Shown here: positions 24,492 to 39,932 of the stretch, piece by piece
Numbering within the stretch: the first letter of the stretch is position 1
How the letters are laid out: the number at the start of each line of letters is the position of its first letter
IMG/VR virus record: IMGVR_UViG_3300025889_019853
Span: 1-43,058 of that record
Length of the DNA stretch: 43,058 bases
Direction: 5' to 3' (one strand)
DNA from: a virus
Notes under the pieces: generated by a model
What the model saw: only the letters and a program-made list of their open reading frames with translations
Database searches by the model: none
What the model was told of the DNA's origin: nothing
Program-made: the position numbers and the translations under genes

Positions 24492-25280
24492 ATGATAAAA
24501 GTAAGCCATGAAACCCCTTTATGTTTGCTGGGGGATAGTGAAAAATTTAACGACTATGACTATTGCTTGCCTCATTTACTCGATGAGGAGGAAGGTTATC
24601 TAGAATATTTTAGACAAGCCAAAGCAAAAGGTCGATACATTATTATGGACAACTCACTTCATGAGCTAGGAAAAGCATATGATACTGAACGTTTAATGTA
24701 TTGGATTTCTGAATTAGAACCAGATGAATTTATTGTACCTGATGTCTGGCAAGATAGAAATGCATCCGTAGAAAATGCTAAAGAATGGGCTAAAATTATT
24801 CTACCTAAAAATACTACTAAAGTAGTTGTTGTTCAAGCAACTACTATCCATGAAGCATTTACTTGCACTCAGGCCTATAAAGATTTAGGTTATGAAAAAA
24901 TTGCATATTCTTATGGTGCTTCTTATTACAATGATGTTGTAACTCACCCTAATAAACATTTAGGTAAAGCTTTAGGTCGTATGGTAGTTTTAAGTACTCT
25001 ATATAATCAAGGTGTTTTAACTAAAGATGATAGAGTGCATTTGCTGGGTTGTCAAGTACCTCAAGAATTTGGTTGGTATAAAGGAATTGATTGTATTGAA
25101 TCAATTGATACTTCAAATCCAGTAATGGCTGCTTTAGAAGGTATTTATTATACTGATGCTGGTTTAGATAAAAAACCAACAGCAAACATGAATGATTATT
25201 TTTATATGTTAAGTGATCAAGTTAATTATGATTACTTAATTCATAATGTTTATAAATTTAGAGAAATTAATGATCTATAA
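24492..25280 (+). CDS. dpdA: DpdA-like DNA guanine transglycosylase
   Basis: A 262-residue TIM-barrel-type protein related to tRNA-guanine transglycosylase. Recognisable sites are IIMDNSLHELGKA (equivalent to the DSGGFQ region that contacts the base), FIVPDVWQDRN, a VVVVQA strand, and VHLLGCQVPQ followed by GIDCIESIDTSNPV. In the last of these the Asp of SIDTS is the likely catalytic nucleophile. Phage DpdA proteins use this fold to exchange guanine in DNA for preQ0 or derivatives. It is shorter than bacterial tRNA TGT (about 375) and I see no C-terminal zinc-binding CxCxxC. QueC, QueD, QueE and FolE follow within 5 kb, which supports a DNA-modification role. The DpdA subfamily cannot be assigned by eye. 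Confidence 0.75.
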   Translation: MIKVSHETPLCLLGDSEKFNDYDYCLPHLLDEEEGYLEYFRQAKAKGRYIIMDNSLHELGKAYDTERLMYWISELEPDEFIVPDVWQDRNASVENAKEWAKIILPKNTTKVVVVQATTIHEAFTCTQAYKDLGYEKIAYSYGASYYNDVVTHPNKHLGKALGRMVVLSTLYNQGVLTKDDRVHLLGCQVPQEFGWYKGIDCIESIDTSNPVMAALEGIYYTDAGLDKKPTANMNDYFYMLSDQVNYDYLIHNVYKFREINDL

Positions 25281-25281
25281 T

Positions 25282-25482
25282 ATGGAAGAAGAATACGTAA
25301 GTTTATTTGATTACCTAGGAAAACCCGCAGGTGAAAAACTAGGTTTAGAAGTAGCAACAGCTGCTGGTAAAGCAGGAGAACCAACTAAAAGAAAAATGGT
25401 TGCAAATGCAAAGTATAAGGGACCTGTAAATATGTTCCGTCGTGAATTTTTAAATGAATATTTTAATCAACAAAAGCGTTAG
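25282..25482 (+). CDS. Small basic hypothetical protein
   Basis: A 66-residue protein from the ATG at 25282, one base after the dpdA stop. Sequence MEEEYVSLFDYLGKPAGEKL leads to a Lys/Arg-rich C-terminal half (TKRKMVANAKYKG). Function unknown. Its place between dpdA and queC, with tight spacing, suggests coexpression with dpdA. A hairpin overlaps its stop codon. Confidence 0.6.
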   Translation: MEEEYVSLFDYLGKPAGEKLGLEVATAAGKAGEPTKRKMVANAKYKGPVNMFRREFLNEYFNQQKR

Positions 25483-25493
25483 CCTATACGCTT
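25474..25493 (+). terminator. Small hairpin overlapping the stop codon
   Basis: AAGCGT (25474-25479) pairs with ACGCTT (25488-25493) around an 8-base loop that includes the TAG stop. There is no T run, so it is at best a weak terminator or an mRNA processing or stability element ahead of queC. A preQ1 riboswitch was considered here and not found. Confidence 0.3.
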
Positions 25494-25525
25494 AAAATAC
25501 CTGGCAAATTTAAATTATATAAATT

Positions 25526-26380
25526 ATGTTATTTACAGACGACCAATTAGGTAAATTGAATGCGAAACACGCAGTAGTATCACTTTCAGGTGGTATGGAT
25601 TCGAGCACTTTGTTGCTTAAATGTATCAAAGAATTTGATACAGTAACGGCTTTGTCTTTTGATTACGGACAAAAACACCGAGTTGAATTAGAGCGAGCTC
25701 AATCATTAGTTGATTATTTGAAAACTAGTGGTTATGATGTTCGTTATCGAGTAATCAAATTAGATGGTTTAACAGACCTATTAAATTCTGCTTTGGTAGA
25801 AGGTGGAGATGAAGTGCCTGAAGGACACTATGCTGAAGAAAACATGAAAGCAACTGTTGTTCCTAATCGCAATAAAATCTTTGCTTCAATTACTCAGGCA
25901 GTAGCACTTTCAATCGCAGATAAAACGGAAGAAAACACTGTAATTGCGATGGGAATTCATGCTGGTGATCACGCAATCTATCCTGATTGTCGTCAAGAAT
26001 TCCGTGACTTGGATTTTGAAGCATTCCGTTCTGGTAACTGGGGTTCTGAAAGAGTATTTGTTTATACTCCTTATTTAAATGGTGATAAGTTTACTATTTT
26101 GGAAGATGGGCAATGGTTGTGTGATTACTTAGTAATTGATTTTGATGAAGTTTACTCACGTACTAATACTTCTTATAAACCAATTAAAATCTATCATCGC
26201 CCAGAAACTAATGCTTACAAATGGTATTCAGATTATAAATCAGCATCATCAGTTGAACGTGTAGAAGCATTTATTAAACTTGGTCGTCCTGATCCTGTAG
26301 AGTATGCTGATGAAAATGGTGTAGCAAGTTGGGAAACAGTTGTTGAACACGTATCTAAAGTACTTGCTAGTCATGAGTGA
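25526..26380 (+). CDS. queC: 7-cyano-7-deazaguanine (preQ0) synthase, QueC
   Basis: A 284-residue ATP-pyrophosphatase-family protein. The PP-loop SLSGGMDSSTLL is at residue ~17, followed by LSFDYGQKH, VPNRNKI, GIHAGDHAIYPDCRQEF and the C-terminal region. It converts 7-carboxy-7-deazaguanine to preQ0 with ATP and ammonia. Typical QueC ends with four zinc cysteines (SCY ... CGxCxxC). Here these positions read S216, D236, S239 and S242, so the zinc site is gone although the surrounding pattern (TSYKP ... SVERVEAFIKLGRPDP) is conserved. The gene belongs to the dpdA-queD-queE-folE cluster. Its stop overlaps the start of the next gene (ATGAGTGA). Confidence 0.85.
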   Translation: MLFTDDQLGKLNAKHAVVSLSGGMDSSTLLLKCIKEFDTVTALSFDYGQKHRVELERAQSLVDYLKTSGYDVRYRVIKLDGLTDLLNSALVEGGDEVPEGHYAEENMKATVVPNRNKIFASITQAVALSIADKTEENTVIAMGIHAGDHAIYPDCRQEFRDLDFEAFRSGNWGSERVFVYTPYLNGDKFTILEDGQWLCDYLVIDFDEVYSRTNTSYKPIKIYHRPETNAYKWYSDYKSASSVERVEAFIKLGRPDPVEYADENGVASWETVVEHVSKVLASHE

Positions 26381-26669
26381 TGGAATAACAGAAGCACGTA
26401 GAGGTACTTATTGGGATAATAATAAATACAATCACAATGATAGTATTCACAACCCAGAATTGTACGGTAAAATTAAAAATACTAAAGATATTAAATTGAA
26501 TACTGAAATTAAAAAATATATGCCTAATCAAAAATGGCATCGTTATGTAAGTTTTATGAAATCAGGAGTCCGCATTTTAGGGTATGCTCTTCTACCCTTT
26601 AATTTGGGTTGGGCAGTTACTTTTCTTATATTAAGCGAAGGAATTGGTATTATTGAAGAATTAGTATAA
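26373..26669 (+). CDS. Small membrane-associated hypothetical protein
   Basis: A 98-residue protein from the ATG at 26373, overlapping queC by 8 bp. A hydrophilic first half (Asn/Lys/Tyr-rich) is followed by one or two hydrophobic stretches near the C-terminus (VRILGYALLPFNLGWAVTFLILSEGIGII). Function unknown; it is coupled at both ends (TAATG with the next gene). Confidence 0.55.
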   Translation: MSDGITEARRGTYWDNNKYNHNDSIHNPELYGKIKNTKDIKLNTEIKKYMPNQKWHRYVSFMKSGVRILGYALLPFNLGWAVTFLILSEGIGIIEELV

Positions 26670-26863
26670 TGAAAAGAAGTAAATATATTCTCCCAGAACG
26701 TTATGTAGTAGTAACTCAAGATGGTGAGGTATTTACTGGCTTAAAAGGTGGAAGATTTCAATATTCACCAGATTGGTCCAAGGCAAAACCCTTGGACCTT
26801 TCCAACACCTACTATTTAATGAGAGAAAAAGGAAACGAATTAATAAAAGAATCTGAATTATGA
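26669..26863 (+). CDS. Small hypothetical protein
   Basis: A 64-residue basic protein (MKRSKYILPERYVVVTQDGE), beta-type in its first half. It overlaps the thioredoxin gene by 4 bp (ATGA). No domain recognised. Confidence 0.5.
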   Translation: MKRSKYILPERYVVVTQDGEVFTGLKGGRFQYSPDWSKAKPLDLSNTYYLMREKGNELIKESEL

Positions 26864-27117
26864 AATATTTGTATTTTAGCGCCCCCTGGTGTGGGCCTTG
26901 TCGTCAATACGGTCCTGTTATGGAACGTGTAGGTCAAACAGTACCTGTTCAAAAAGTAAATGTAGATGAAAACCAACAGTTGGCTATGGAATATTCTGTT
27001 CGTAGCGTCCCAACTGTAATTTTAATTGATGAATCAGGTAAAGAATTTGCTCGCCATGTAGGAGTAAAAGATGGTCAACTATTAGTAGAACAATATAATA
27101 ACTTTAACAATGCCTAA
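26860..27117 (+). CDS. Thioredoxin
   Basis: An 85-residue minimal thioredoxin with the active-site FSAPWCGPCRQ near residue 10, a VNVDEN strand and the cis-Pro loop SVPTVILID. It could reduce the C-terminal CVSC of the phage NrdA, or serve host redox control. It is shorter than E. coli TrxA (109) and starts directly at the second strand. It overlaps queD by 8 bp and is cotranscribed with the deazaguanine genes. Confidence 0.85.
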   Translation: MKYLYFSAPWCGPCRQYGPVMERVGQTVPVQKVNVDENQQLAMEYSVRSVPTVILIDESGKEFARHVGVKDGQLLVEQYNNFNNA

Positions 27118-27574
27118 ATTTCAATCAACAAAAGTATTTGACGGGTTTAGTACAGTATTCCGTCAATGGAAAGCTGAAGGAACACATTGTAGATTTTTAC
27201 ACGGTTATGGTGTAAGTTTTAAAGTATGGTTCGAAGGAGATCTTGACGAACGTAACTGGGTTTGGGATTTTGGAGGTATGAAACGTGCCAAAGGTACTAT
27301 TGATGGTATGTCTCCTAAAGATTGGATGGAGTATATGTTTGATCATACCCTAGTAGTTGCTGAAGATGATCCTTATCTAGAAGGATTTAAAGCAATGGAT
27401 GTTCATGGTTTAACCCAAACACGAGTTGTACCTGCTACAGGTGCTGAACAATTTGCTAAATTTATTTATGAAAAACTCAACACTTTTATTAACGAAGAAA
27501 CCTCTGGTCGTGTTAAGGTTGTAAAAGTTGAGTTTAGGGAACACGGTAAAAATAGTGCTATTTATGGCGATTAA
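27110..27574 (+). CDS. queD: 6-carboxytetrahydropterin synthase, QueD-like variant
   Basis: A 154-residue T-fold protein. The catalytic cysteine and pterin-pocket region reads GTHCRFLHGYGVSF, followed by WVWDFGGMK, the DHTLV segment, and a C-terminal VKVVKVEFREHGK strand with a Glu. Standard QueD has an FxAAH zinc His and HGH; here these are FSTVFRQW and HGY, the form seen in the RQW/HCRFLHGY branch of the 6-pyruvoyl-tetrahydropterin-synthase superfamily. It would make 6-carboxytetrahydropterin from dihydroneopterin triphosphate (FolE product). The start overlaps thioredoxin and the end overlaps queE, so all three are coupled. Confidence 0.78.
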   Translation: MPKFQSTKVFDGFSTVFRQWKAEGTHCRFLHGYGVSFKVWFEGDLDERNWVWDFGGMKRAKGTIDGMSPKDWMEYMFDHTLVVAEDDPYLEGFKAMDVHGLTQTRVVPATGAEQFAKFIYEKLNTFINEETSGRVKVVKVEFREHGKNSAIYGD

Positions 27575-28373
27575 CGAAAAATTATGGAAAAAGTCGGCCC
27601 CATTAGGTCGCATTGAAGATTATGACAAAGTTCTCCCAGTATTGGAACTTTATAGATGTGTGCAAAGTGAAGGAAGTCGTTTTGGACGTCCTACGATTGC
27701 CGTTCGTACTACTGGCTGTACTCACCGCTGCTATTTTGGTGAAGGTGGGTGGTGTGATTCCTGGTATACATCCATTCACCCTGAAAAGGGCGGCTTTACG
27801 TTTAATGACATTATTAAAATTTACGACGAAAACCCCCACGTCAAGGAAATGATGTTAACAGGAGGTTCTCCAACAATGCACCCAGCATTGGTAAATGAGC
27901 TAACCCACTTTGCAAATGAAAGAGGTATTTTTATTACTATCGAGACTGAAGGTTCTCATTTCCTCGAAACGGATTATCCGATTAACCTCATTTCTTTGTC
28001 ACCTAAGTTTAGTAATAGTGTCCCTGTTGTTGGTGCCCTTACTCCCAATGGATCAGTTACAGATGAAAAGATGGTTCAAACACACAATCGTCTTCGCCTT
28101 AATACTGAAGCCATTAGAGCGACTCTTGATTATCATGCTGACTATCACTATAAGCCTGTCTGGGATGGCACTGATGAAGGCCTCGCTGAAATCGAAACTT
28201 ACAGAGTCGAACTCGGTATTCCTAAAGACAAAACATTTGTTATGCCTGCCGGAGATACTCGTAAAACATTAATTGAAATGTATCCTAAAGTATTTGAAAT
28301 GTGTGCTGAGCATGGCTATAACATGACTGGTAGAGATCACATTATTGCTTACGATACTAAACGACAAGTATAA
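27564..28373 (+). CDS. queE: 7-carboxy-7-deazaguanine synthase, QueE (radical SAM)
   Basis: A 269-residue radical-SAM protein from the ATG at 27564; the longer frame from 27528 starts inside queD without a better start. It shows VQSEGSRFGRPTIAVRTTGC and the cluster-binding C52-x3-C56-x7-C64, followed by MLTGGSP for SAM binding and TIETEGS for the substrate and metal site. QueE converts carboxytetrahydropterin to carboxydeazaguanine. Common QueE motifs are CX3CX2C (or CX14CX2C), so the 7-residue gap between the last two cysteines (YFGEGGW) is unusual. The end overlaps the next small gene by one base. Confidence 0.85.
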   Translation: MAINEKLWKKSAPLGRIEDYDKVLPVLELYRCVQSEGSRFGRPTIAVRTTGCTHRCYFGEGGWCDSWYTSIHPEKGGFTFNDIIKIYDENPHVKEMMLTGGSPTMHPALVNELTHFANERGIFITIETEGSHFLETDYPINLISLSPKFSNSVPVVGALTPNGSVTDEKMVQTHNRLRLNTEAIRATLDYHADYHYKPVWDGTDEGLAEIETYRVELGIPKDKTFVMPAGDTRKTLIEMYPKVFEMCAEHGYNMTGRDHIIAYDTKRQV

Positions 28374-28501
28374 TGGAAGAAGCACTTGAAATATTAGACA
28401 AAATAGAAGAAAATGTTTCAGTGTGTTGTGCCATTACTATGGAGCCAGACGAAGTTCTGGCTCTTATAGATAAATTAAGAGAAATTTTAAAAGAAAAATA
28501 A
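28373..28501 (+). CDS. 42-residue acidic hypothetical protein
   Basis: The ATG at 28373 overlaps the queE stop (TAATG) and the TAA at 28499-28501 overlaps the next start (TAATG), so this short frame fills the gap exactly and is coupled on both sides. It encodes a helical peptide starting MEEALEILDKIEENVSVCCA with a Cys-Cys pair. The perfect fit of both junctions is the main reason to accept it. Confidence 0.65.
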   Translation: MEEALEILDKIEENVSVCCAITMEPDEVLALIDKLREILKEK

Positions 28502-28851
28502 TGTATACTTACAATGCAACTGTAACTAAAGTAGTTGATGGAGACACTATTGATGCTTTAGTAGATTTAGGATTTGATACTTGGAAACAAATCCGTATCC
28601 GTTTAAATGGAATTAATACCCCAGAATCTCGAACTCGTGATTTAGAAGAAAAAGCTAGAGGATTAGCTGCTAAAGCTCGTTTAAAAGAGATTTTAAAAGA
28701 AAATAAAAATAAATTTATTTTAGTTTCTTATGGAGTAGGAAAATATGGTAGATGTTTAGGAGAAATTTTTCTTACTGAAAATTCAGATAGTGTAAATAAT
28801 TTGTTGATTAGTGAAGGCCACGCAGTAGAATACCACGGAGAAAAAAGATAA
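28501..28851 (+). CDS. Thermonuclease (SNase) family nuclease
   Basis: A 116-residue staphylococcal-nuclease-fold protein. VVDGDTIDALVDLG, RIRLNGINTPE and GKYGRCLGEIFL provide the Asp, Arg-Glu and Arg of the active site. No signal peptide is seen, so it would act in the cytoplasm, for example on host DNA or RNA. Lying inside the DNA-modification cluster, it could degrade unmodified host DNA while modified phage DNA is spared, but that is conjecture. Confidence 0.82.
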   Translation: MYTYNATVTKVVDGDTIDALVDLGFDTWKQIRIRLNGINTPESRTRDLEEKARGLAAKARLKEILKENKNKFILVSYGVGKYGRCLGEIFLTENSDSVNNLLISEGHAVEYHGEKR

Positions 28852-28854
28852 TAT

Positions 28855-29361
28855 ATGAGAGAATTACTATCTGCAAAGGATATTGATATCCAAACAAAAA
28901 TTATAGCTAAGCAAATTGCTGATGACCATCGTGGGGATAAGACACCTGTTGTGATGGTTGGTTTATTAAATGGTGCCTTTATGTTTTACGCGGACTTGGT
29001 GCGTAACATGAGTATCGACGTAGAATGCGATTTTATGCGCGTTAAATCGTATATAAGCAAAAACAAACAGGGCGACATCCAAATCACCAAAGATTTAGAG
29101 ACACCCGTTAAAGGCAAACATGTTTATTTAGTAGATGATATTTACGATACTGGTAATACTATGCAGGCAGTAATCGATTATTTAGAAGTCAAACACCCAG
29201 CCTCAATTTCAATTGTATCTTTAGTTACTAGAATGACATCACCACTTCCAAAACAAAAATCATACCACGCCTTTACTATTGATAATGAGTGGTTGGTAGG
29301 ATTTGGAATGGACAATGATAAAGGTTATTTAAGAAATTTACCCTCAATTTGGGCTCTCTAA
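28855..29361 (+). CDS. Hypoxanthine/guanine phosphoribosyltransferase-like
   Basis: A 168-residue type I phosphoribosyltransferase. The early VGLLNGAFMFYADL segment and the PRPP-binding VYLVDDIYDTGNTM are of HPRT type, and the C-terminal WLVGFGMDN resembles the purine-binding loop of HPRT. It would turn guanine or hypoxanthine plus PRPP into the nucleotide. Because DpdA releases free guanine when it inserts a deazaguanine, a salvage enzyme next to this cluster makes biochemical sense (inference). Confidence 0.82.
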   Translation: MRELLSAKDIDIQTKIIAKQIADDHRGDKTPVVMVGLLNGAFMFYADLVRNMSIDVECDFMRVKSYISKNKQGDIQITKDLETPVKGKHVYLVDDIYDTGNTMQAVIDYLEVKHPASISIVSLVTRMTSPLPKQKSYHAFTIDNEWLVGFGMDNDKGYLRNLPSIWAL

Positions 29362-29379
29362 AATATTTTATTACATTCA
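29349..29379 (+). promoter_or_regulatory. Phage promoter motif before folE
   Basis: TTG at 29349-29351 (in the last codons of the HPRT gene) and TACATTCA at 29372-29379, 20-bp spacer, 19 bp before the folE ATG at 29399. Confidence 0.7.
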
Positions 29380-29398
29380 CGCAAAATAAATAAGTTAT

Positions 29399-30094
29399 AT
29401 GGAAAACAAACGTCGTAAAAAGCACGAAGATATTGAGTGCGTTCCTGTAGGAATGGCAAATGGTGTAGCAGCTGGCTTCCCATTCACAGACAAAGAAAAA
29501 TGGTCAATGGTAAATGAAGCCGAAGAAGCATTCGGTAAATTCCTTGATGCCCTAAAAGTTGATTGGCGTAACGATCCTAATTCTATGGAAACACCCCGTC
29601 GCGTAGCTAAAGCTTACGTGTTTGATTTGTTTGCTGGTCGTTATGATAATTTTACTGAAATTACTTCATTCCCAAGTGATGGTTATGATGGAGTAATTAT
29701 TGAGCGAAACATCCCTGTTACCTCAATGTGTTCACACCACCACCAAACAATTAGAGGTGTAGTTCATATTGGTTACATTGCTGGAGCTGATGGTCAAGTA
29801 ATTGGTTTGTCTAAATTGAATCGTATTGTTGAGCATTTTGGCCGTAGAGGCGCTATCCAAGAACAACTTACTTCAGCAATTCATCAAGCTGTAGATAAAG
29901 TATGTGAAGGTAACAAAGGTGTTATTGTAACTGTAGTTGCTACTCACAATTGTGTTTCTTGCCGTGGTATCAAACATCAAGGTGCTGCTATGGTAACTAC
30001 TAAAGCATCTGGTGTGTTTATGGAAAATGATAACCTAGCACGTAAAGAGTTTTTTGATTCACTAAAAATTAATAATGGTCATGTCTCAATTTAA
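29399..30094 (+). CDS. folE: GTP cyclohydrolase I
   Basis: A 231-residue FolE. The N-terminal helical part is followed by METPRRVAKAY, then the zinc site MCSHHHQTI (Cys and His), GLSKLNRIVEHFGRR, and the second zinc Cys in CVSCRGIKHQGA. It makes dihydroneopterin triphosphate from GTP, the first step toward preQ0 in this cluster. Its own promoter lies just upstream. The stop overlaps the following MazG-like gene. Confidence 0.92.
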   Translation: MENKRRKKHEDIECVPVGMANGVAAGFPFTDKEKWSMVNEAEEAFGKFLDALKVDWRNDPNSMETPRRVAKAYVFDLFAGRYDNFTEITSFPSDGYDGVIIERNIPVTSMCSHHHQTIRGVVHIGYIAGADGQVIGLSKLNRIVEHFGRRGAIQEQLTSAIHQAVDKVCEGNKGVIVTVVATHNCVSCRGIKHQGAAMVTTKASGVFMENDNLARKEFFDSLKINNGHVSI

Positions 30095-30740
30095 AGATTT
30101 AATTGAAATCGAGTTACGCAATAGTTTAGGTTTACTTCAATCTCTTAGAGATAGAGACCAACTAAGCTTAACCCCAGAAGCTGAATGGGCTTCTATTACA
30201 GCAGAACGTATTGCTGTGAAATTTAATGGTGATTATGTCCCATTTGTAAGCGAAGTAGAAACATTTAACGCCACAATGGGCAAACCTAACAATTATGAAC
30301 CAGTTATTCCAGAAGAAAACGAGTGGATGTTTGTTTACAATTTCATCCTTGAGGAACTTGAAGAGTACAAACATGCTTGTGAAACGGGAGACATTGTTGA
30401 GGTACTTGATGCTTTATGTGACATTGCCTACGTTTCTATTGGTAACGGAGCTATGCTACATGGTCTTAAAGATAAGCTATGGTCAGCATATCAAGAAGTA
30501 CAAGCGTCCAATATGTCAAAGGCTTGTCTTAACGAAGAAGAAGCACAAGCGACTGTTGAACTCCGAAGTAAAGAACAGGGCGAATCTTGTCACTATGAAA
30601 AGGTTGGAGACTATTTTATTGTCTATCGAAGCCGTGATCGTAAAGTAATGAAAAATATAAATTACTTTAGACCAGATCTTTCCCAGTTTTTTAGTAATGA
30701 TGAACTAGCTCGACTTAGAAACGAAACATTAGGAATTTGA
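30081..30740 (+). CDS. MazG-like nucleotide pyrophosphohydrolase
   Basis: A 219-residue helical protein from the ATG at 30081 (an ATG at 30075 is also possible; both overlap folE). The central helices show EELEEYKHAC and EVLDALCDIAYV, the ExxE and D(x)3D metal motifs of all-alpha NTP pyrophosphatases. A C-terminal part (HYEKVGDYFIVYRSRDRKV) resembles that of phage phosphoribosyl-ATP-pyrophosphohydrolase-like proteins. Possible roles are clean-up of noncanonical nucleotides or lowering ppGpp-type signals. It overlaps the polymerase gene (TGATG). Confidence 0.72.
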   Translation: MSQFKDLIEIELRNSLGLLQSLRDRDQLSLTPEAEWASITAERIAVKFNGDYVPFVSEVETFNATMGKPNNYEPVIPEENEWMFVYNFILEELEEYKHACETGDIVEVLDALCDIAYVSIGNGAMLHGLKDKLWSAYQEVQASNMSKACLNEEEAQATVELRSKEQGESCHYEKVGDYFIVYRSRDRKVMKNINYFRPDLSQFFSNDELARLRNETLGI

Positions 30741-32518
30741 TGTACAAAAAATGTTATGCTCAACGTCTCAAAGAAAATACTTATTTAATTCATCTTTGGG
30801 AGGATAGTGGTTATAGTAAAATTGAATGGACTAATCAGGCCTATAGTGAGTGCGACGAATCAGAAGCCACTCATACAGGTTTGAATGGAGAACCTTTAAA
30901 AAAAGTTAGAAATTGGAAACCAGATAACCCAAAACTTCATTTTCATGACATGACTCCTTATCAAAAGTTCCTTATTGAAAAATATGGAATTAATGATGAA
31001 CCGTCTAAAACTCATCGTGAGCTATTTTTTGACATTGAGACCGAAATGGGAGACGCTCTTACTGAAGATTATATTAAGAGCGCTCCTAAAAAGGTCACCT
31101 CAATTGCTTGGTATGATAAACAAGTAGATGAATGGGCTATTCTTATTTTAGATGCTAAAAATCAAATTAATCATACTAAAGCAAAAAATAAAGAAATTAT
31201 CCCTTGCCGTACTGAAGAGGAATTATTGCTTAAATTTCTAGAAAAATTTAGAGAAATTGATCCTGATATTGTAGTAGGATGGAACAGTGATTACTTCGAT
31301 ATTCCTTATTTATATTATAGAATTTGTAATGTATTAGGTGAGGATACTGCTCGTTACTTATCTCCAATTGGTTTTGTTAGAGAAACTCCATGGTTTAAAG
31401 ACCAATATGTTCAAATAGCAGGAGTTGAATCACTTGACTACATGCGCCTACATAAAAAATTCAGTTGGGCTGATGAACCATCATTTAAATTAGATGCTAT
31501 TGGAGAAAAATACGCAGGGATAAATAAAATTGAGTATGAAGGTAGTTTAGACAGATTATTTGAAACAGATATTAACAAATTTATTCAGTATAACTTTCGA
31601 GACGTTGAAATTCTAAAAGTATTAGATGAAAAACTAGAATATCTAGCACTTGTAAAAAACCTATCACATAAAGGTAAACACAATTATAGTGAAGTTTATG
31701 CTAATACTAAAACCCAAGATGGAGCCATTTCAGCTTATTTATTGAGTGAAGGACTTGTACCCCCAGCTAAAGACCGCAACCCACTTTCCAAGAAAAACTA
31801 TGCTGGGGGTTACTTGTTTTGCCCTAAAGCCGGTATTTACAACTATATGTTTGATGAGGATTTGACCTCACTATATCCTTCAATTATTATGACTGTTAAC
31901 ATTGGTAAAGAAACAATGGTTGGTCGTATTATTGATGCTGATGATAGAAATAATCGTTTAGGTTTAAATGATTTACTTGCTAGGGATCCTGAAGAAGAAC
32001 TTATTATTGAAAATGCTAAACGTAAACGTACTAAAATTAAAGTAGGTGGTTTAGTTAATTTGATTAAAGATATGAAAATGGCCGTTTCAGCAAACGGTGT
32101 ATTCTTTAGAACAGATAAGGAATCAGTTTTATCTACTATTTTGAAAAAATGGTTTGATGAACGTGTTTTATATAAAAACCAAATGAAAAAAGCATATAAA
32201 TCAGGTGATAAAGAAGCTGGTGCTGGTTTTCATATGAAACAATATACTATGAAGATTTTGTTGAATAGTTTGTATGGTGCAACTGCTCTTGGTAGTTTCC
32301 GTTATGGTAATGTTATTTTATCTGAAGCAATTACTTTGAGTGGTCAGCGTATTATTCAAGAAAGTGCTTTAGCAGCAAACCGTCACATGAATAAGGTTAT
32401 TAAAGGAGAAATTAATTTAAAACTAAAAAAAGATGATTTACAACACAAACCAGGTGAAAGGATGACTGTTGTTGGTACTAGTTTTAGTTTAGGAACCAGT
32501 GAATCTTTAGAAAGATAA
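30740..32518 (+). CDS. 43A: Family B DNA polymerase, N-terminal part (exonuclease, palm motif A, fingers)
   Basis: A 592-residue gp43-type protein from the ATG at 30740 (TGATG overlap with the previous gene). It has exonuclease motifs ExoI FFDIETEM, ExoII VVGWNSDYFDIPY and ExoIII YNFRDVEIL, so proofreading is intact. Polymerase motif A is DEDLTSLYPSIIM and motif B is MKILLNSLYGA. It stops shortly after the fingers, before motif C, with a tail of about 35 residues (ending SLGTSESLER). The remaining part is encoded by the next gene, out of frame but joined by TAATG. The two polypeptides presumably assemble into one replicase working with the clamp encoded at 35764. Confidence 0.88.
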   Translation: MYKKCYAQRLKENTYLIHLWEDSGYSKIEWTNQAYSECDESEATHTGLNGEPLKKVRNWKPDNPKLHFHDMTPYQKFLIEKYGINDEPSKTHRELFFDIETEMGDALTEDYIKSAPKKVTSIAWYDKQVDEWAILILDAKNQINHTKAKNKEIIPCRTEEELLLKFLEKFREIDPDIVVGWNSDYFDIPYLYYRICNVLGEDTARYLSPIGFVRETPWFKDQYVQIAGVESLDYMRLHKKFSWADEPSFKLDAIGEKYAGINKIEYEGSLDRLFETDINKFIQYNFRDVEILKVLDEKLEYLALVKNLSHKGKHNYSEVYANTKTQDGAISAYLLSEGLVPPAKDRNPLSKKNYAGGYLFCPKAGIYNYMFDEDLTSLYPSIIMTVNIGKETMVGRIIDADDRNNRLGLNDLLARDPEEELIIENAKRKRTKIKVGGLVNLIKDMKMAVSANGVFFRTDKESVLSTILKKWFDERVLYKNQMKKAYKSGDKEAGAGFHMKQYTMKILLNSLYGATALGSFRYGNVILSEAITLSGQRIIQESALAANRHMNKVIKGEINLKLKKDDLQHKPGERMTVVGTSFSLGTSESLER

Positions 32519-33447
32519 TGAAACATATAGAAGATACTCCTTGGTGGATTTGTGATCCTGAAGATACTAATTATGTAGCATATTCTGATACAGACTCTAT
32601 CTACATTCATGCTGAACCTCTGTTACGTTATTTGTATCCTGATTTTGATCAAATGTCAAGTGAAGATAAAGATGATAAATTAGAGGAAATTGCTCTTAAG
32701 TATCAAGACATTATTACTGATTCTTACAATGATTTGGCTAAAAATTGCTTTAATGTTCAAGAACATAGACTTGAAATGAAGACTGAATGTGTTATTCGTT
32801 CAGCTTATTTTAGAGCAACAAGACGTTATGCTCAGTGGATCACTAAGCAGGAAGGTATTACAAAAGAATCACTTGATGTTAAAGGTCTTGAATTTAAAAA
32901 AGCTAATTTTCCACCTGTATTAGGTAATTTCTTTAAACAAGCATTAATTGATGTATTGAAAGGTGCGAAACAATCTGAGATTGATGCTCGCGTTAAGGAG
33001 TTTAGACAGCAAATATTAGACGGTAGTATACCGCTTACAACATTAGGTAATCCTACATCTGTTAAAACTCTTAATAAATATATTGATCGTAAGGCAAGGG
33101 CAGGTGAAATGTTTTCCGTGATTGCTAAAGGAGCCCCAGCATCAGTTAAATCTACTATTGTGTATAATGATTTGCTTAGGTTTTGGAAATTAAGTAATGA
33201 TCACAGTTATATTGTTCAAGGTGATAAAGTAAAATGGATTTATTTAAAACCTAATCCTTACCAAATCGAAGCTATTTCATTCCTAGACTTTGACTTGCCA
33301 GAAAAAATTCGTTTATTTATTGAAGAATATGCTGATCGTAAAAAAGTGTTTGAATCAATTTTGTTAAATAAGTTAGAGGGATTTTATAATGATCTTGGAT
33401 GGACATTAAATTTAAATCCTTATAAAGAAATGTTTTTTAATTTATAA
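32518..33447 (+). CDS. 43B: Family B DNA polymerase, C-terminal part (motif C, thumb)
   Basis: A 309-residue protein that begins 26 residues before motif C (VAYSDTDSIYIH) and continues through the thumb, matching the C-terminal third of gp43. The VKGLEFKKANFPP segment resembles the KxY-type region after motif C (lysine-containing primer grip). It has no exonuclease or motif A or B and cannot polymerise alone. The start codon overlaps the stop of the N-terminal part by one base, which favours equal synthesis. The C-terminus (NPYKEMFFNL) looks like a clamp-binding tail with two aromatic residues. Confidence 0.88.
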   Translation: MKHIEDTPWWICDPEDTNYVAYSDTDSIYIHAEPLLRYLYPDFDQMSSEDKDDKLEEIALKYQDIITDSYNDLAKNCFNVQEHRLEMKTECVIRSAYFRATRRYAQWITKQEGITKESLDVKGLEFKKANFPPVLGNFFKQALIDVLKGAKQSEIDARVKEFRQQILDGSIPLTTLGNPTSVKTLNKYIDRKARAGEMFSVIAKGAPASVKSTIVYNDLLRFWKLSNDHSYIVQGDKVKWIYLKPNPYQIEAISFLDFDLPEKIRLFIEEYADRKKVFESILLNKLEGFYNDLGWTLNLNPYKEMFFNL

Positions 33448-33448
33448 T

Positions 33449-35077
33449 ATGGCTAAAGTATACGGATTATTTTTTGGAGCACATGGTTTTTCTACTTCTT
33501 TAATTGTAGATGGAAAAATTGAATATGCTGTAGAAGATGAAAGAATTGCCCGAGTAAAATCTGGTTGGAGATGGTGGAAACCTCCCTATGATTCTATCAG
33601 AGAAATAGAAAAAGCTAGTGGTATTACTCTTGAAGATGCTGATAAAATTATTATAGCAGACCCTACAATGCATTATTGTATTCTTCAATTTAACAATGAT
33701 GAAGTAAATGAAGAATATGCTGCTGATTTAAGAAATCGTTTAATAAAACTTAAATCAAAAGTTAGTTGGATGAATCATCATGAAGCCCATGCTTACAGTA
33801 CTTATTATCTTTCAGGATTTAAAGATAAAACATTAGTGCTTACCTCAGATGGGGGATCTTATGAAGGAGAATATGGTACTATAAGTTTAGCAGAAGATGG
33901 AGTTATGAAAAAAATTCATTCTATTCCTATTGCAACAGGAGCTTCTATAGCTAATATGTGGTTTTATGCTTGTACTTATTATGGTTGGAGAGGTACTAAA
34001 GACGAAGGTAAAATCATGGGGATGGCTGGGCATGGAAAATATAATGAATATTTGTATAATGCTATAAGTCAATGTGTTAATTATAAAGGTAATTTAGAAT
34101 TTTACCCTGGGGAAAATGGTCCTACTACAGATTTTATTTATAGGCATTTAGAAAAAGAAGGATGGTTTGAAGGACAAAAAAATAGACAAGATTTTGCTTA
34201 TAATCTTCAAAAGTATACTGAAGATATTTTTATGAAGTACCTAACAGATGTTGCTAAAAAATATCCTCAATACCGAAGTTTAGCTTTAGCAGGTGGGGTT
34301 TTTGCTAATGTAAAACTAAACCAAATAATTAATGAATCAGGTTTATACGATAGAGTGTTTATTACTCCCGCTATGAGTGATGAAGGTTTAAGTTTAGGAG
34401 CTGCTATTAAAGGTTCAATAGATATAGGTGATTGGGATGGAGTTAAACAATTAGAAACTTCGTTTTTAGGATTAGAGTATTCCCAAGAAGAAATTGATCA
34501 ACAGGCCTCTAGATTATCTGTAACATCATCACCATTAGATTATAAAGAAGTAGGTAAACTAATTCATGAAGGTAATATTATTGCTTTATTTAATGGTAAA
34601 TTTGAATTTGGTCCTAGAGCATTAGGTGCTCGTTCAGTAATGGTAAGACCTACAGATGCTGAAACCCATGAAGTGCTTAATACAAGATTAGAACGACATG
34701 AAATTATGCCATTTGCTCCCTTTATAATGAGTGAATATGCTGATGTTGTATTTGATGTTCCTCAATCTCAACATACTGCTGAATTTATGACTATGTGTTA
34801 TACAGTTCGTTCTGAATGGGCAGATAAAATCCCAGCAGTAATCCACCGAGTAGATAATACAGGGCGCCCTCAAATTGTATACAAACATAAAAACCCTGTA
34901 TTTTGGAATATATTAAATGAGTATCATAAACTTTCAGGTATCCCTGTTATGCTTAATACTTCATTTAATGGACACGGAGAACCTATTGTAAATACTCCTG
35001 AACAAGCATTTGCTCACCTTACAAAAGGTACAATTGATTATTTGATAGCTGGAAATAAAATTTATAAAAAAGTATAA
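33449..35077 (+). CDS. Carbamoyltransferase, NodU/TobZ family
   Basis: A 542-residue protein with both domains of the family. The N-terminal Kae1-like part has LFFGAHGFSTSLIVDG, NHHEAHAYSTYYL, TSDGGSYEG and a LAGGVFANVKLN segment. The C-terminal YrdC-like part has GRPQIVYK, FEFGPRALGARS and TSFNGHGEPIV. The metal/carbamoyl-phosphate His residues of NHHEAHA are present. These enzymes transfer a carbamoyl group from carbamoyl phosphate and ATP to a hydroxyl. In a phage the acceptor could be a sugar, a modified base or a host molecule; the next gene may be its partner (TAATG coupling). Confidence 0.88.
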   Translation: MAKVYGLFFGAHGFSTSLIVDGKIEYAVEDERIARVKSGWRWWKPPYDSIREIEKASGITLEDADKIIIADPTMHYCILQFNNDEVNEEYAADLRNRLIKLKSKVSWMNHHEAHAYSTYYLSGFKDKTLVLTSDGGSYEGEYGTISLAEDGVMKKIHSIPIATGASIANMWFYACTYYGWRGTKDEGKIMGMAGHGKYNEYLYNAISQCVNYKGNLEFYPGENGPTTDFIYRHLEKEGWFEGQKNRQDFAYNLQKYTEDIFMKYLTDVAKKYPQYRSLALAGGVFANVKLNQIINESGLYDRVFITPAMSDEGLSLGAAIKGSIDIGDWDGVKQLETSFLGLEYSQEEIDQQASRLSVTSSPLDYKEVGKLIHEGNIIALFNGKFEFGPRALGARSVMVRPTDAETHEVLNTRLERHEIMPFAPFIMSEYADVVFDVPQSQHTAEFMTMCYTVRSEWADKIPAVIHRVDNTGRPQIVYKHKNPVFWNILNEYHKLSGIPVMLNTSFNGHGEPIVNTPEQAFAHLTKGTIDYLIAGNKIYKKV

Positions 35078-36510: not shown

Positions 36511-37137
36511 ATGGAAAATTTTTTATTACATAATATTCCTTTTAAATTACATACTAATGATCTTATTTCTAATGATATAAGCCAAAGTAGGGATTTTTAT
36601 GAAGTTGAAATTTTTAAATTATTTCAACCTTTTATACCAACAGAAGGTGTAATTTTAGATATTGGGGCTAATATAGGTAACCATTCGGTAATGTTTGCCT
36701 TAAATTATCCTAATTCTAAAATATATGCTTTTGAACCTGCTATGATTAATTTTGAATTATTGGATTTTAATACTAAAACATTGCCTAATATTGAAATATT
36801 TAAAATAGCTTTAGGTAGTAATAATGGCCTAGTTAGTATGAATTGTGAGAATATAACTAATAAAGGTAGTTTTGTTATAGATAGTACTGGGGAAAAAGTA
36901 CCATCAATGAAAGTAGATACCCTTAATTTTTCTTCAATTTCATTTTTAAAAATAGATGTAGAAGGACATGAATATTCTGTAATAGAAGGAGCCGCAGAAA
37001 CAATAACTACCCAAAAACCAGTTATTTGGATTGAAGATTTTTCTTATGACACTGTTAATTATTTAATCAATAATTTTAATTATAAAATAAGAGCTAAAGG
37101 ACCTTATAATAATTTTTTACTAGTTTCTAAAAATTAA
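36511..37137 (+). CDS. FkbM-family SAM methyltransferase
   Basis: A 208-residue class I methyltransferase. Motif I is ILDIGANIGNHSVMFA near residue 49, a YAFEPA follows for ribose binding, and LKIDVEGHEYSVIEGA is the FkbM hallmark. FkbM enzymes usually O-methylate sugars or polyketides. It lies after the clamp gene and before the chaperone block, in an accessory position within the replication region. Acceptor unknown. Together with the carbamoyltransferase 1.4 kb upstream it recalls sugar-decorating gene sets. Confidence 0.8.
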   Translation: MENFLLHNIPFKLHTNDLISNDISQSRDFYEVEIFKLFQPFIPTEGVILDIGANIGNHSVMFALNYPNSKIYAFEPAMINFELLDFNTKTLPNIEIFKIALGSNNGLVSMNCENITNKGSFVIDSTGEKVPSMKVDTLNFSSISFLKIDVEGHEYSVIEGAAETITTQKPVIWIEDFSYDTVNYLINNFNYKIRAKGPYNNFLLVSKN

Positions 37138-37229: not shown

Positions 37230-37661
37230 ATGAGTACATTATTTTTCGAGAGACAACTCTCACCATTTGATCTATTATTTAAAGACTTTTTTAAGTCTGA
37301 GTTGGATTTCCAACCGGCTATTGAAGCCAAATTTTCCCACCCAGTAGATATTTTTGAGAACAAGCATGGGCTTCATTTTGATATTGCCTGTACTGGTCTT
37401 TCTAAATCCGATATTGAAATTAATATCGAAGGAGATGTTCTTAGAATTTCCTACAATAAACCCAAAGATGAAGCTTGTTGTGAAACTAATGAGTGTAATT
37501 ATATTCACAGAGGAATTGCTAAGCGTTCATTTAATTTAGGTTATAAAATTGCTCCTAAATTTGACCTCTCCAAAACAGAGGCAATGATGGAAAACGGATT
37601 GCTAGGAATTAGAATTCCATTTGCTGAAGAAGCTAAACCAAAAGCAATTAAAATTAAGTAA
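37230..37661 (+). CDS. Small heat-shock protein, Hsp20 family
   Basis: A 143-residue protein with an alpha-crystallin domain. HPVDIFENKHGLHFDIACTG starts the domain, GDVLRISYNKP is an inner strand, and GLLGIRIPF near the end is close to the GxLxIxIP hallmark; KPKAIKIK is the C-terminal I-x-I motif. A short N-terminal arm (LFFERQLSPFDLLFKDFF) fits oligomerisation and client binding. A Cys-rich loop (EACCETNEC) is inserted in the middle of the domain. It would hold unfolding phage or host proteins for refolding, with phage GroES/GroEL encoded downstream. Confidence 0.88.
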   Translation: MSTLFFERQLSPFDLLFKDFFKSELDFQPAIEAKFSHPVDIFENKHGLHFDIACTGLSKSDIEINIEGDVLRISYNKPKDEACCETNECNYIHRGIAKRSFNLGYKIAPKFDLSKTEAMMENGLLGIRIPFAEEAKPKAIKIK

Positions 37662-37668
37662 ATAAATC

Positions 37669-37689
37669 GCTCCCTAAAGTTGGTTTTGT
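37669..37689 (-). repeat. Right arm of the inverted repeat flanking hsp20
   Basis: GCTCCCTAAAGTTGGTTTTGT is the reverse complement of 37152-37175 without its GAT. The arm overlaps the TTG element of the promoter at 37680. Confidence 0.8.
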
Positions 37690-37710
37690 TAAAAAAAATT
37701 CGTATATTCA
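37680..37710 (+). promoter_or_regulatory. Phage promoter motif before the GroES/GroEL unit
   Basis: TTG at 37680-37682 and TATATTCA at 37703-37710 with a 20-bp spacer, 16 bp ahead of the ATG at 37727 through an AAGTTAT leader. Confidence 0.7.
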
Positions 37711-37726
37711 CGTAAAATTAAGTTAT

Positions 37727-38020
37727 ATGACAATTATTAAAGATCCGGCACTAGAGCCATTCCACATTTCTAGAGATCAACACTGCTACACTGTAGTAGA
37801 GACTATTACTCCTGAAGCTAAAAACTTAGAAAAAGGTAGTGAGGGTAAAGTTTATGAAAAACCCTTAGGTCACTTTGGGAATTTAGAAGCTGCTCTAAAA
37901 AAAATCGTAAAAGCAAAAGTTGAACTCAAAGAAGAATATAATTCAATTTTAGAATATATTAGAGAATACAATCAACAAAAAGAAACAATTAATAAATTAT
38001 TTAATCAAGTAAACTTATGA
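37727..38020 (+). CDS. Hypothetical protein upstream of groES
   Basis: A 97-residue protein (MTIIKDPALEPFHISRDQHC) with a beta-type first half and a helical, coiled-coil-like second half (NLEAALKKIVKAKVELKEEY). It shares the promoter at 37680 and overlaps groES by 4 bp (ATGA). Unknown; similar small proteins are frequent beside phage replication genes. Confidence 0.55.
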   Translation: MTIIKDPALEPFHISRDQHCYTVVETITPEAKNLEKGSEGKVYEKPLGHFGNLEAALKKIVKAKVELKEEYNSILEYIREYNQQKETINKLFNQVNL

Positions 38021-38310
38021 GTTTAGAAGCACTATTTGATGCGGTTATTGTACGACCGATTGAAGAAGAAGAAACAATGTATGGAAACATTGTTATCCCA
38101 GATTTAGGAAAAGACCGAAATGAAAAAGGTACAGTTGTAGCTGTTGGTTCTGGTAAACCTACAGTAACCGGAAATTTTATCCCTACAGTAGTCCAAGTAG
38201 GTGATGTAGTTATTCTCCCAACAATGGGTTTTACTAAATTGGAATATGATGGTGAAGAATACTTTGTTGGACCTGAAAACCAAATTTTAGCACGAATTAA
38301 ACCTGAATAA
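38017..38310 (+). CDS. groES: Co-chaperonin GroES
   Basis: A 97-residue GroES with the usual order: DAVIVRPIEEEE start, mobile loop TMYGNIVIPD, roof area, GTVVAVGSGK and the ending EYFVGPENQILARI. The mobile loop keeps the Ile-Val-Ile triplet that docks on GroEL. Same size as bacterial GroES (97), so not the enlarged T4 gp31 type. The groEL gene starts 2 bp after it. Confidence 0.88.
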   Translation: MSLEALFDAVIVRPIEEEETMYGNIVIPDLGKDRNEKGTVVAVGSGKPTVTGNFIPTVVQVGDVVILPTMGFTKLEYDGEEYFVGPENQILARIKPE

Positions 38311-38312
38311 TT

Positions 38313-39932
38313 ATGCCTGTAGATTTAAGAAAAGAAATTACATTTGGAGCTGATGCTCGAAAAGAATTAATGGAAGGCATTGACATTCTTGCCAATGCTG
38401 TAGTAAGTACTTTAGGACCTAATGGTCGAAATGTACTAATCGATAATTACCCAGCACTTCCAATGTCAACTAAGGATGGTGTTACTGTTGCTAAAAATAT
38501 TGTAGTAGATGGTAAGACCCGAGATCTAGGAGTTCAAGTAGTTAAAGCAGCTGCTATGAAAACTGCTGATAAAGCTGGTGATGGTACTACAACTTCAACC
38601 TTATTAGCTCGTGAAATGATTAAAGAAGGTCTTTCTCATCTTAATAATGATGCTAATGCCGTAGAAATTAAACGTGGTATTGATAAAGCAGTCCAACAAG
38701 TAGTTGAAACTCTTCGTATTAATGCTGAAGATATTTCATCTGAAGAACAACTAGAACAAATTGCTACTATTTCAGCTAATAATGATCCTGAAATTGGTAA
38801 ATTAATTGCTACTGCAATGGAAAAAGTAGGTCGTGATGGTGTTGTTCATATTCAAGACAGTACTACAGGTGAAACTTATCTTGAAACAGTAGAAGGTATG
38901 CAATTTAACAAAGGTTATAAATCACATTTCTTTGTTACTGATAATAATACAATGAGCTGTAAACTTGATGATGTTTTTATTTTTATTGCAAACCACAAAT
39001 TTACCCAAGTTAAAGAATTGCTTCCTATTTTAGAAGGTGTTTCTGCTACAAATAAATCATTGTTGATTATTGCTGATGATGTTGAAAATGAGGCACTTGC
39101 AACTTTAATTGTAAATAAAGCTCGTGGTACCCTAAAAGTATGTGCTGTTAAAGCTCCTGATTTTGGTGATCGTCGTAAACTTATTTTAGATGATATCGCT
39201 ACTTTAACAGGTGGTGTTGTATTTGACAAAGACAAGGGTATGAAATTGGACAAATTCAGTTGGGATTGGTTTGGTCAAGCTCGTGCTGTAACTGTTACTA
39301 AAGAAGAAACTACAATTGTAGATGGTAAAGGTACAGAAGAAGCTATTGAGCAACGTGTTGCTGAATTGCAAGCACAAATTAATAAAGCTACAACTCCATT
39401 TGAAGTTGAACAATTGCAAAATCGTTTAGCTAAAATGGTTGGTGGTGTTTCTATCATTCATGTAGGTGGGCATAATGAAACTGAAATGGTTGAAAAGAAA
39501 GACCGCGTTGATGATGCACTTCATGCTACTAAAGCTGCTCTTGAAGAAGGTATTGTTCCTGGTGGGGGTGCTGCTTTACTTTATGCTCGTGAAACTATTG
39601 AAAATAAAGGTAACATTGGTGCCCAAATCGTGTATAAAGCTTGTGGTAAACCATTTGAACAAATTCTTGTTAATGCTGGTTATTCTTCAACTGATGCCCA
39701 AATGATTGGCAAATATCGATTAGTGGATTCAGGTAATGATATTTGGGCAGGTTATAACCTTAAAACTGACGAGGTTGTAAACATGAAAGAAGCCGGTATT
39801 ATCGACCCAGCTAAAGTAACTCGTACAGCTCTTGAAAATGCAGCTGCTGTAGCAGGAACATTGCTTTTAACAGAATGTACTATTGTAGCTCATCCTGAAC
39901 AAAAAGAAGCAACACCTGATGCAATGTATTAA
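38313..39932 (+). CDS. groEL: Chaperonin GroEL
   Basis: A 539-residue, full-length GroEL. The nucleotide-binding LGPNGRNV, KDGVTVAK, AGDGTTTSTLLAREM and the ATPase region DRVDDALHATKAALEEGIVPGGGAAL are intact, including the catalytic Asp in VDDAL. The apical domain (YKSHFFVT, RGTLKVCAVKAPDFGDRR) looks normal. The C-terminal Gly-Gly-Met tail of bacterial GroEL is missing (ends KEATPDAMY). Preceded by groES and hsp20, it gives the phage its own folding system, perhaps for its capsid or tail proteins. Confidence 0.93.
   Translation: MPVDLRKEITFGADARKELMEGIDILANAVVSTLGPNGRNVLIDNYPALPMSTKDGVTVAKNIVVDGKTRDLGVQVVKAAAMKTADKAGDGTTTSTLLAREMIKEGLSHLNNDANAVEIKRGIDKAVQQVVETLRINAEDISSEEQLEQIATISANNDPEIGKLIATAMEKVGRDGVVHIQDSTTGETYLETVEGMQFNKGYKSHFFVTDNNTMSCKLDDVFIFIANHKFTQVKELLPILEGVSATNKSLLIIADDVENEALATLIVNKARGTLKVCAVKAPDFGDRRKLILDDIATLTGGVVFDKDKGMKLDKFSWDWFGQARAVTVTKEETTIVDGKGTEEAIEQRVAELQAQINKATTPFEVEQLQNRLAKMVGGVSIIHVGGHNETEMVEKKDRVDDALHATKAALEEGIVPGGGAALLYARETIENKGNIGAQIVYKACGKPFEQILVNAGYSSTDAQMIGKYRLVDSGNDIWAGYNLKTDEVVNMKEAGIIDPAKVTRTALENAAAVAGTLLLTECTIVAHPEQKEATPDAMY

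Follow-up and report, generated by a model that had tools for sequence, protein, structure and literature searches.

A phosphoribosyltransferase linked to FolE and a zinc-free QueC in the predicted 7-deazaguanine DNA-modification cluster of a marine phage

The window, as we call the whole 43,058-nt IMG/VR fragment IMGVR_UViG_3300025889_019853 analysed here, comes from a marine virus of bacteria and carries at positions 24492-30094 (+ strand) a complete gene cluster for 7-deazaguanine modification of DNA. The modification pathway itself is already known; what is new is its link to a purine phosphoribosyltransferase (PRT), in the window a hypoxanthine-guanine phosphoribosyltransferase (HGPRT) encoded beside FolE, and a QueC that lacks the zinc site. 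On balance, we lean towards the view that guanine-replacing phages repeatedly gained a dedicated guanine recycler feeding FolE (an HGPRT, a Gpt/XPRT-type PRT or a Gpt-FolE fusion), and that the zinc site of QueC is not needed to make 7-cyano-7-deazaguanine (preQ0).

The explanation as a whole, which we regard as likely, combines the preQ0 pathway, base exchange by DpdA and a guanine-recycling PRT. FolE, QueD, QueE and QueC would make preQ0 from GTP, and DpdA, a short enzyme with the tRNA-guanine transglycosylase (TGT) fold, would swap guanine in the phage DNA for preQ0, leaving DNA that restriction enzymes would cut poorly. A transglycosylase frees one guanine per base inserted and FolE consumes one GTP per preQ0, so each exchange would free one guanine and spend one GTP. 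The PRT of the cluster (HGPRT, or in other lineages a Gpt-type enzyme or a Gpt-FolE fusion) would use phosphoribosyl pyrophosphate (PRPP) to convert the freed guanine to GMP, and host kinases would return GMP to GTP, the substrate of FolE, closing the loop. The modified base is very probably present in virion DNA, and the recycling role of the PRT is reasonably likely.

At 33% G+C, a genome of about 160 kb would contain an estimated 53,000 guanines. If substitution is near-complete, a burst of 50 would consume more than 2 million GTP and release an equal number of guanines, a demand estimated to be comparable to or above the guanine nucleotide pool of a cell. Salvage by a linked enzyme would account for how the phage can afford substitution on this scale. 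No discussion of the guanine expelled by base exchange was found in the literature searched. Phosphoribosyltransferases are mentioned neither in Hutinet 2019 (PMC6884629) nor in the MMDA13 paper, as far as we found, and a jumbo-phage review mentions them for NAD and Ter systems only. Targeted full-text searches, which did not cover Cui 2023 and older Iyer/Aravind work, found no description of the PRT-deazaguanine link, and an earlier remark is possible.

The phosphoribosyltransferase beside FolE

An IMG/VR scan with the window DpdA gathered 88 relatives. About 80 IMG/VR contigs, most of the 88, share the gene order dpdA-queC-(small genes)-trx-queD-queE-PRT-folE-mazG-polB. Two genes conserved with the cluster, HGPRT (28855-29361, + strand) and a MazG-like gene (30075-30740, + strand), had been left out by an earlier note on this DNA, which was made from the sequence alone. 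The HGPRT, our proposed guanine recycler, scored 150.2 bits against TIGR01203 (cut-off 150), most relatives falling slightly below the cut-off. Its closest PDB chains are HPRTs, the PRPP loop VDDIYDTGNT is present, and the catalytic D98 is invariant.

The stronger evidence for the link of the PRT to the pathway is the fusion to FolE, the changes in gene order and the exchange of PRT type within one slot. Among 33 window-type loci, several of which are near-identical contigs so that the independent cases are fewer, the queE-folE slot holds HGPRT in 24 and a Gpt/XPRT-type PRT (PRK09177) in eight. A PRT is missing from the slot only in L077, which has HGPRT elsewhere in its genome. The Gpt/XPRT-type PRT is unrelated to HGPRT, and is also the type found in Flavobacterium phage immuto and its relatives. 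Moreover, tblastn with the immuto PRT in cultured phages matched regions annotated as GTP cyclohydrolase, and a Gpt-like N-terminal domain was found on FolE in VpKK5, MMDA13, ply2008005c and Baskent_P4_1. A domain search identified this fusion in about 30 cultured siphophage records (Pseudomonas, Xanthomonas, Variovorax, Vibrio, Stenotrophomonas and Sphingomonas phages), which brings the recycling idea within reach of cultured phages. In IMG/VR, 34 contigs carry the fusion, with the PRPP loop, RGG and PW motifs all intact in 28. Furthermore, the PRT adjoins FolE/QueE in StAshley and MIJ3.

Of the 43 cultured records showing a Gpt-like match, at least 40 contain deazaguanine genes; for comparison, 263 of 50,697 phage records have a QueC match. 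When PRT domains were grouped at 50% identity, 25 of the 27 groups had deazaguanine genes in at least one locus, and for the remaining two, phiST and G005, such genes lie at another place in the genome. Likewise, the three long HGPRT records that showed no deazaguanine genes within 8 kb have QueE elsewhere.

Several points weigh against a dedicated recycler. The PRTs used to seed the IMG/VR scans came from deazaguanine clusters, which biases upward the co-occurrence percentages from these scans (deazaguanine genes within 8 kb in 73 of 78 HGPRT loci and in 75 of 80 Gpt loci). The phage HGPRTs have Arg, Arg126 in the window protein, where 4lyy has a purine-contacting Lys, which makes their substrate preference uncertain. 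The PRT is not universal among deazaguanine phages: PF00156, a profile that also misses fused domains, gave no match in CP220, CP20, CAjan, VH7D, phiSM, Dp-1, Laurie, HCTV-1, MA9V-3 or G006. In turn, DpdA of the window type is lacking in some HGPRT phages that have QueD and QueE.

The PRT might instead serve general purine salvage that enlarges the nucleotide pools of the phage, its position in the cluster being incidental. Nucleotide-metabolism genes are common in phages, and in line with this reading phiST has its PRT close to ribonucleotide reductase and apart from the cluster. However, many siphophages have the PRT fused to FolE, the slot can hold a Gpt-type enzyme instead of HGPRT, and Gpt-like PRTs of cultured phages seldom lie outside deazaguanine genomes; we judge general salvage rather unlikely.

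A further alternative is that the PRT acts on free 7-deazaguanine, that the resulting nucleotide is reduced and incorporated by the polymerase, so that guanine is replaced before replication, and that MazG removes dGTP. The joint conservation of MazG and PRT (the MazG-like gene is present in 73 of the 80 Gpt loci and 59 of the 78 HGPRT loci), the P-loop kinases flanking dpdA in immuto, CP220 and phiST, the complete replacement in CP220 and the Arg for Lys in the PRT base site are consistent with this route. Nevertheless, this route would make the DpdA, which has the TGT residues, redundant, and the PRT is linked to FolE, where GTP is consumed. In addition, 6-oxopurine PRTs normally use N7, which deazaguanines lack. 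Such a nucleotide route is therefore quite improbable, and recycling of freed guanine is the reading that we prefer.

A DpdA of the CP220/immuto type

DpdA, the predicted DNA guanine transglycosylase (24492-25280, + strand, 262 aa), had been called a TGT/DpdA-type enzyme in the earlier note. No TGT sequence profile matched it, and DUF6610 did so weakly, below the cut-off; the placement was upheld by the predicted structure. The AlphaFold2 model had a mean pLDDT (predicted local distance difference test) of 92.7, and a structure search with it returned TGT structures first (2ash, E 6.3e-8), with the bacterial DNA preQ0 insertase DpdA (7ui4, E 4.9e-6) among the best 50. A sequence-profile search of the PDB was not decisive, yielding mainly designed TIM barrels and 7ui4 at E 0.084.

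In tblastn searches, the window DpdA was 39% identical to the annotated DpdA of immuto and 35% identical to CP220 gp056 over 99% of its length (E 2e-36); it also has distant relatives in Cellulophaga phiST and Chryseobacterium MA9V-3. Vibrio nt-1 DpdA2 was not among the tblastn matches and is a distant fold match only. Sequence comparison places the window DpdA in the CP220/immuto type and outside DpdA1 and DpdA2. This type is probably the DpdA3 of Cui 2023. D53 and D206 are invariant in 43 aligned sequences, including CP220 and phiST, and D84, Q115 and the HLLG region are invariant or nearly so. Judged by motif position, D53, D84, Q115 and D206 would sit where the acid/base, recognition and nucleophile residues of TGT are expected.

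The DNA of CP220 has 100% of its deoxyguanosine replaced by the amide dADG (PMC8306585), and Hutinet 2019 lists Campylobacter phages as without DpdA; as judged by homology, the CP220-type family fills this gap. Modified guanine in the phage DNA, as proposed in the earlier note, is well supported by the genes present and their conservation, by the fold of DpdA and by homology to phages with measured modification. The cluster could also serve host tRNA queuosine during infection and leave phage DNA unmodified, since FolE, QueD, QueE and QueC are common to the tRNA pathway. This is highly improbable: a DNA-type DpdA heads the cluster and is conserved in about 80 loci, and no QueA, QueG or QueH was seen.

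Among the closest known systems is that of Flavobacterium phage vB_FspM_immuto (MW353175-7), whose QueC (zinc-free), QueD, QueE, FolE, MazG and DpdA are 70%, 74%, 67%, 59%, 76% and 39% identical to those of the window, with a PRT between QueE and FolE in both. However, immuto also carries a P-loop kinase and genes annotated as QueF and formyltransferase, its PRT is of the Gpt type where the window has HGPRT, and its queC lies apart. Campylobacter phages CP220 and CP20 share a homologous DpdA (34-35% identity, full length) but have zinc-type QueC, scattered genes and no PRT that we could find. The preQ0 group of Hutinet 2019 (CAjan, Rosebush) resembles the window in having FolE, QueD, QueE, QueC, a DpdA and no amidotransferase, and differs in its DpdA subfamily and zinc QueC; no PRT was found in CAjan or in Laurie, a relative of Rosebush. 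In siphophages VpKK5, MMDA13, PaMx25 and Quinobequin-P09, which have the deazaguanine pathway, a purine PRT is likewise linked to FolE, although there the PRT is a Gpt-like N-terminal FolE domain and the DpdA is of the DpdA1 type.

Phages immuto, CP220 and phiST each have a P-loop kinase gene beside or close to dpdA (L001 14582-15106, L002 8813-9355, L003 5466-5963), and none was seen adjoining dpdA in the window.

Zinc-free QueC and the end product

QueC of the window (25526-26380, + strand, 284 aa; PF06508, 6.7e-37) keeps the canonical motifs of PMC13329287, namely SGGMDS, YGQKHRVE, VPNRN and YPDC, and the essential Tyr. The zinc motif C(x)8CxxCxxC is missing, all four cysteines being lost, and TSY...SDYKSASSVER is found instead. 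The cysteines are absent from all 48 distinct relatives compared, which have a conserved stretch of the latter kind in their place, and are kept in the QueC of CP20, CAjan, Laurie, Dp-1, VH7D, phiSM and HCTV-1. A genome scan also found zinc-free QueC in Cysteiniphilum, Pirellulaceae, one Verrucomicrobiota metagenome-assembled genome and marine group II archaea. It was the only strong QueC match in 12 of 12 genomes tested, and QueF was above the cut-off in all nine bacterial ones. Phage immuto likewise combines the same zinc-free QueC with an annotated QueF.

The substrate of QueF is the nitrile. Because QueF co-occurs with it, the zinc-free QueC should make preQ0, and the zinc site appears from these sequence patterns to be dispensable for preQ0 synthesis. 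We had considered that loss of the zinc site makes QueC stop at the amide, a candidate weakened by the annotated QueF of immuto and by the bacteria with both zinc-free QueC and QueF. PMC13329287 presents the zinc motif as a QueC hallmark, and in the passages searched we found no mention of a zinc-free clade. The clade corrects the current QueC signature and touches QueC annotation in marine archaea and planctomycetes.

As the window is a fragment, product genes were compared in long relatives of 75-164 kb. Searches of these, which covered QueF and class-I glutamine amidotransferases, gave no QueF above the cut-off, no amidotransferase and no DpdN-like gene. The immuto QueF and formyltransferase, used as queries, had no match in the relatives, the searched records including no positive control. 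Weak QueF matches in L077 and L079 coincide with FolE, which shares the T-fold, and were rejected. Since QueF, an immuto-type formyltransferase and a class-I amidotransferase were not found and the zinc-free QueC should make preQ0, dPreQ0 is probably the end product, and is the likeliest candidate. The same product had been predicted in the earlier note from the lack of queF and amidotransferase genes in the window, a prediction strengthened by the long relatives and by the co-occurrence of the QueC clade with QueF in bacteria. Alternatively, the end product could be dADG as in CP220, where the closest measured DpdA homologue works (PMC8306585), and the QueC of the window is unusual. Against this, the QueC of CP20, a phage congeneric with CP220, is of the zinc type, and in bacteria the zinc-free clade accompanies QueF, which needs the nitrile; dADG is accordingly an unlikely product.

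In marine group II archaea (L121, L123, L127, L149 and others), the zinc-free QueC is apparently fused to a C-terminal MsrB-like domain. QueC, QueD and QueE of Cysteiniphilum-type bacteria (L114-L119) are 42-58% identical to those of the window phage, and the unusual QueE spacing CX3CX7-8C is common to both. This similarity suggests gene exchange between such bacteria and phage.

Other genes of the cluster and the window

ORF (open reading frame) coordinates and profile matches agreed in placing QueC, QueD, QueE and FolE on the + strand where the earlier note had put them, as fold and homology did for DpdA. QueD (6-carboxytetrahydropterin synthase, 27110-27574) has a THCxxxHGY variant and matched at 4.8e-14 (Pfam) and 3.3e-41 (PHROG). 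QueE (4.6e-47, PHROG) spans 27564-28373, the ATG at 27564 being its most likely start. FolE (GTP cyclohydrolase I, 29399-30094; 5.3e-43 in a profile search) has the zinc motifs CSHHH and HNCVSCRG. A 78-aa ORF of no known family (25246-25482), kept in part of the relatives, overlaps dpdA. Between queC and trx lie a conserved 109-aa ORF with an uncertain TTG start (26340-26669) and a partly conserved 64-aa ORF (26669-26863), followed by the thioredoxin-like protein (CGPC, 26860-27117). A staphylococcal-nuclease-like protein (28501-28851) is a partly conserved neighbour, and all of these lie on the + strand. The described coupling by overlaps held for dpdA/78-aa ORF, trx/queD, queD/queE, folE/mazG and mazG/polB; gaps were found before queC, after queE and before folE.

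The MazG-like protein, by profiles a MazG/PRA-PH-like nucleoside triphosphate pyrophosphohydrolase, travels with the cluster; its 76% identity with immuto compares with 39% for DpdA. Relatives G029 and G031 (L448, L449) have QueD, QueE and HGPRT, with FolE also in G029, and no QueC or window-type DpdA in the searched stretch. Many Gpt clusters (L281-L360) have FolE, QueD, QueE and MazG and, like phiST, no QueC in the stretch; their product may be a carboxy- or unsubstituted deazaguanine.

The description of the phage as T4-like fits its replication genes (PolB, clamp, clamp loader, UvsX and helicase); the ORFs scanned yielded no recognisable T4 structural gene. Two overlapping ORFs (30737-32518 and 32518-33447) together encode the family B DNA polymerase, whose two parts lie about 1-2 kb apart in relatives such as L008 and L012. 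Near it lie a Nol/NodU-like carbamoyltransferase (33449-35077) and an FkbM-type methyltransferase (36511-37137), both sporadic in relatives. A second, cytosine modification through the carbamoyltransferase was rejected, as this gene is sporadic and the ThyA-like neighbours are thymidylate synthases, with no hydroxymethylase. At other loci, the thymidylate-synthase Asn motif FNIASY is kept in 21 of the ThyA-like neighbours whose motif could be read, and there is therefore no sign of hydroxymethyl bases. HSP20, GroES and GroEL genes are found at 37230-39932 of the window.

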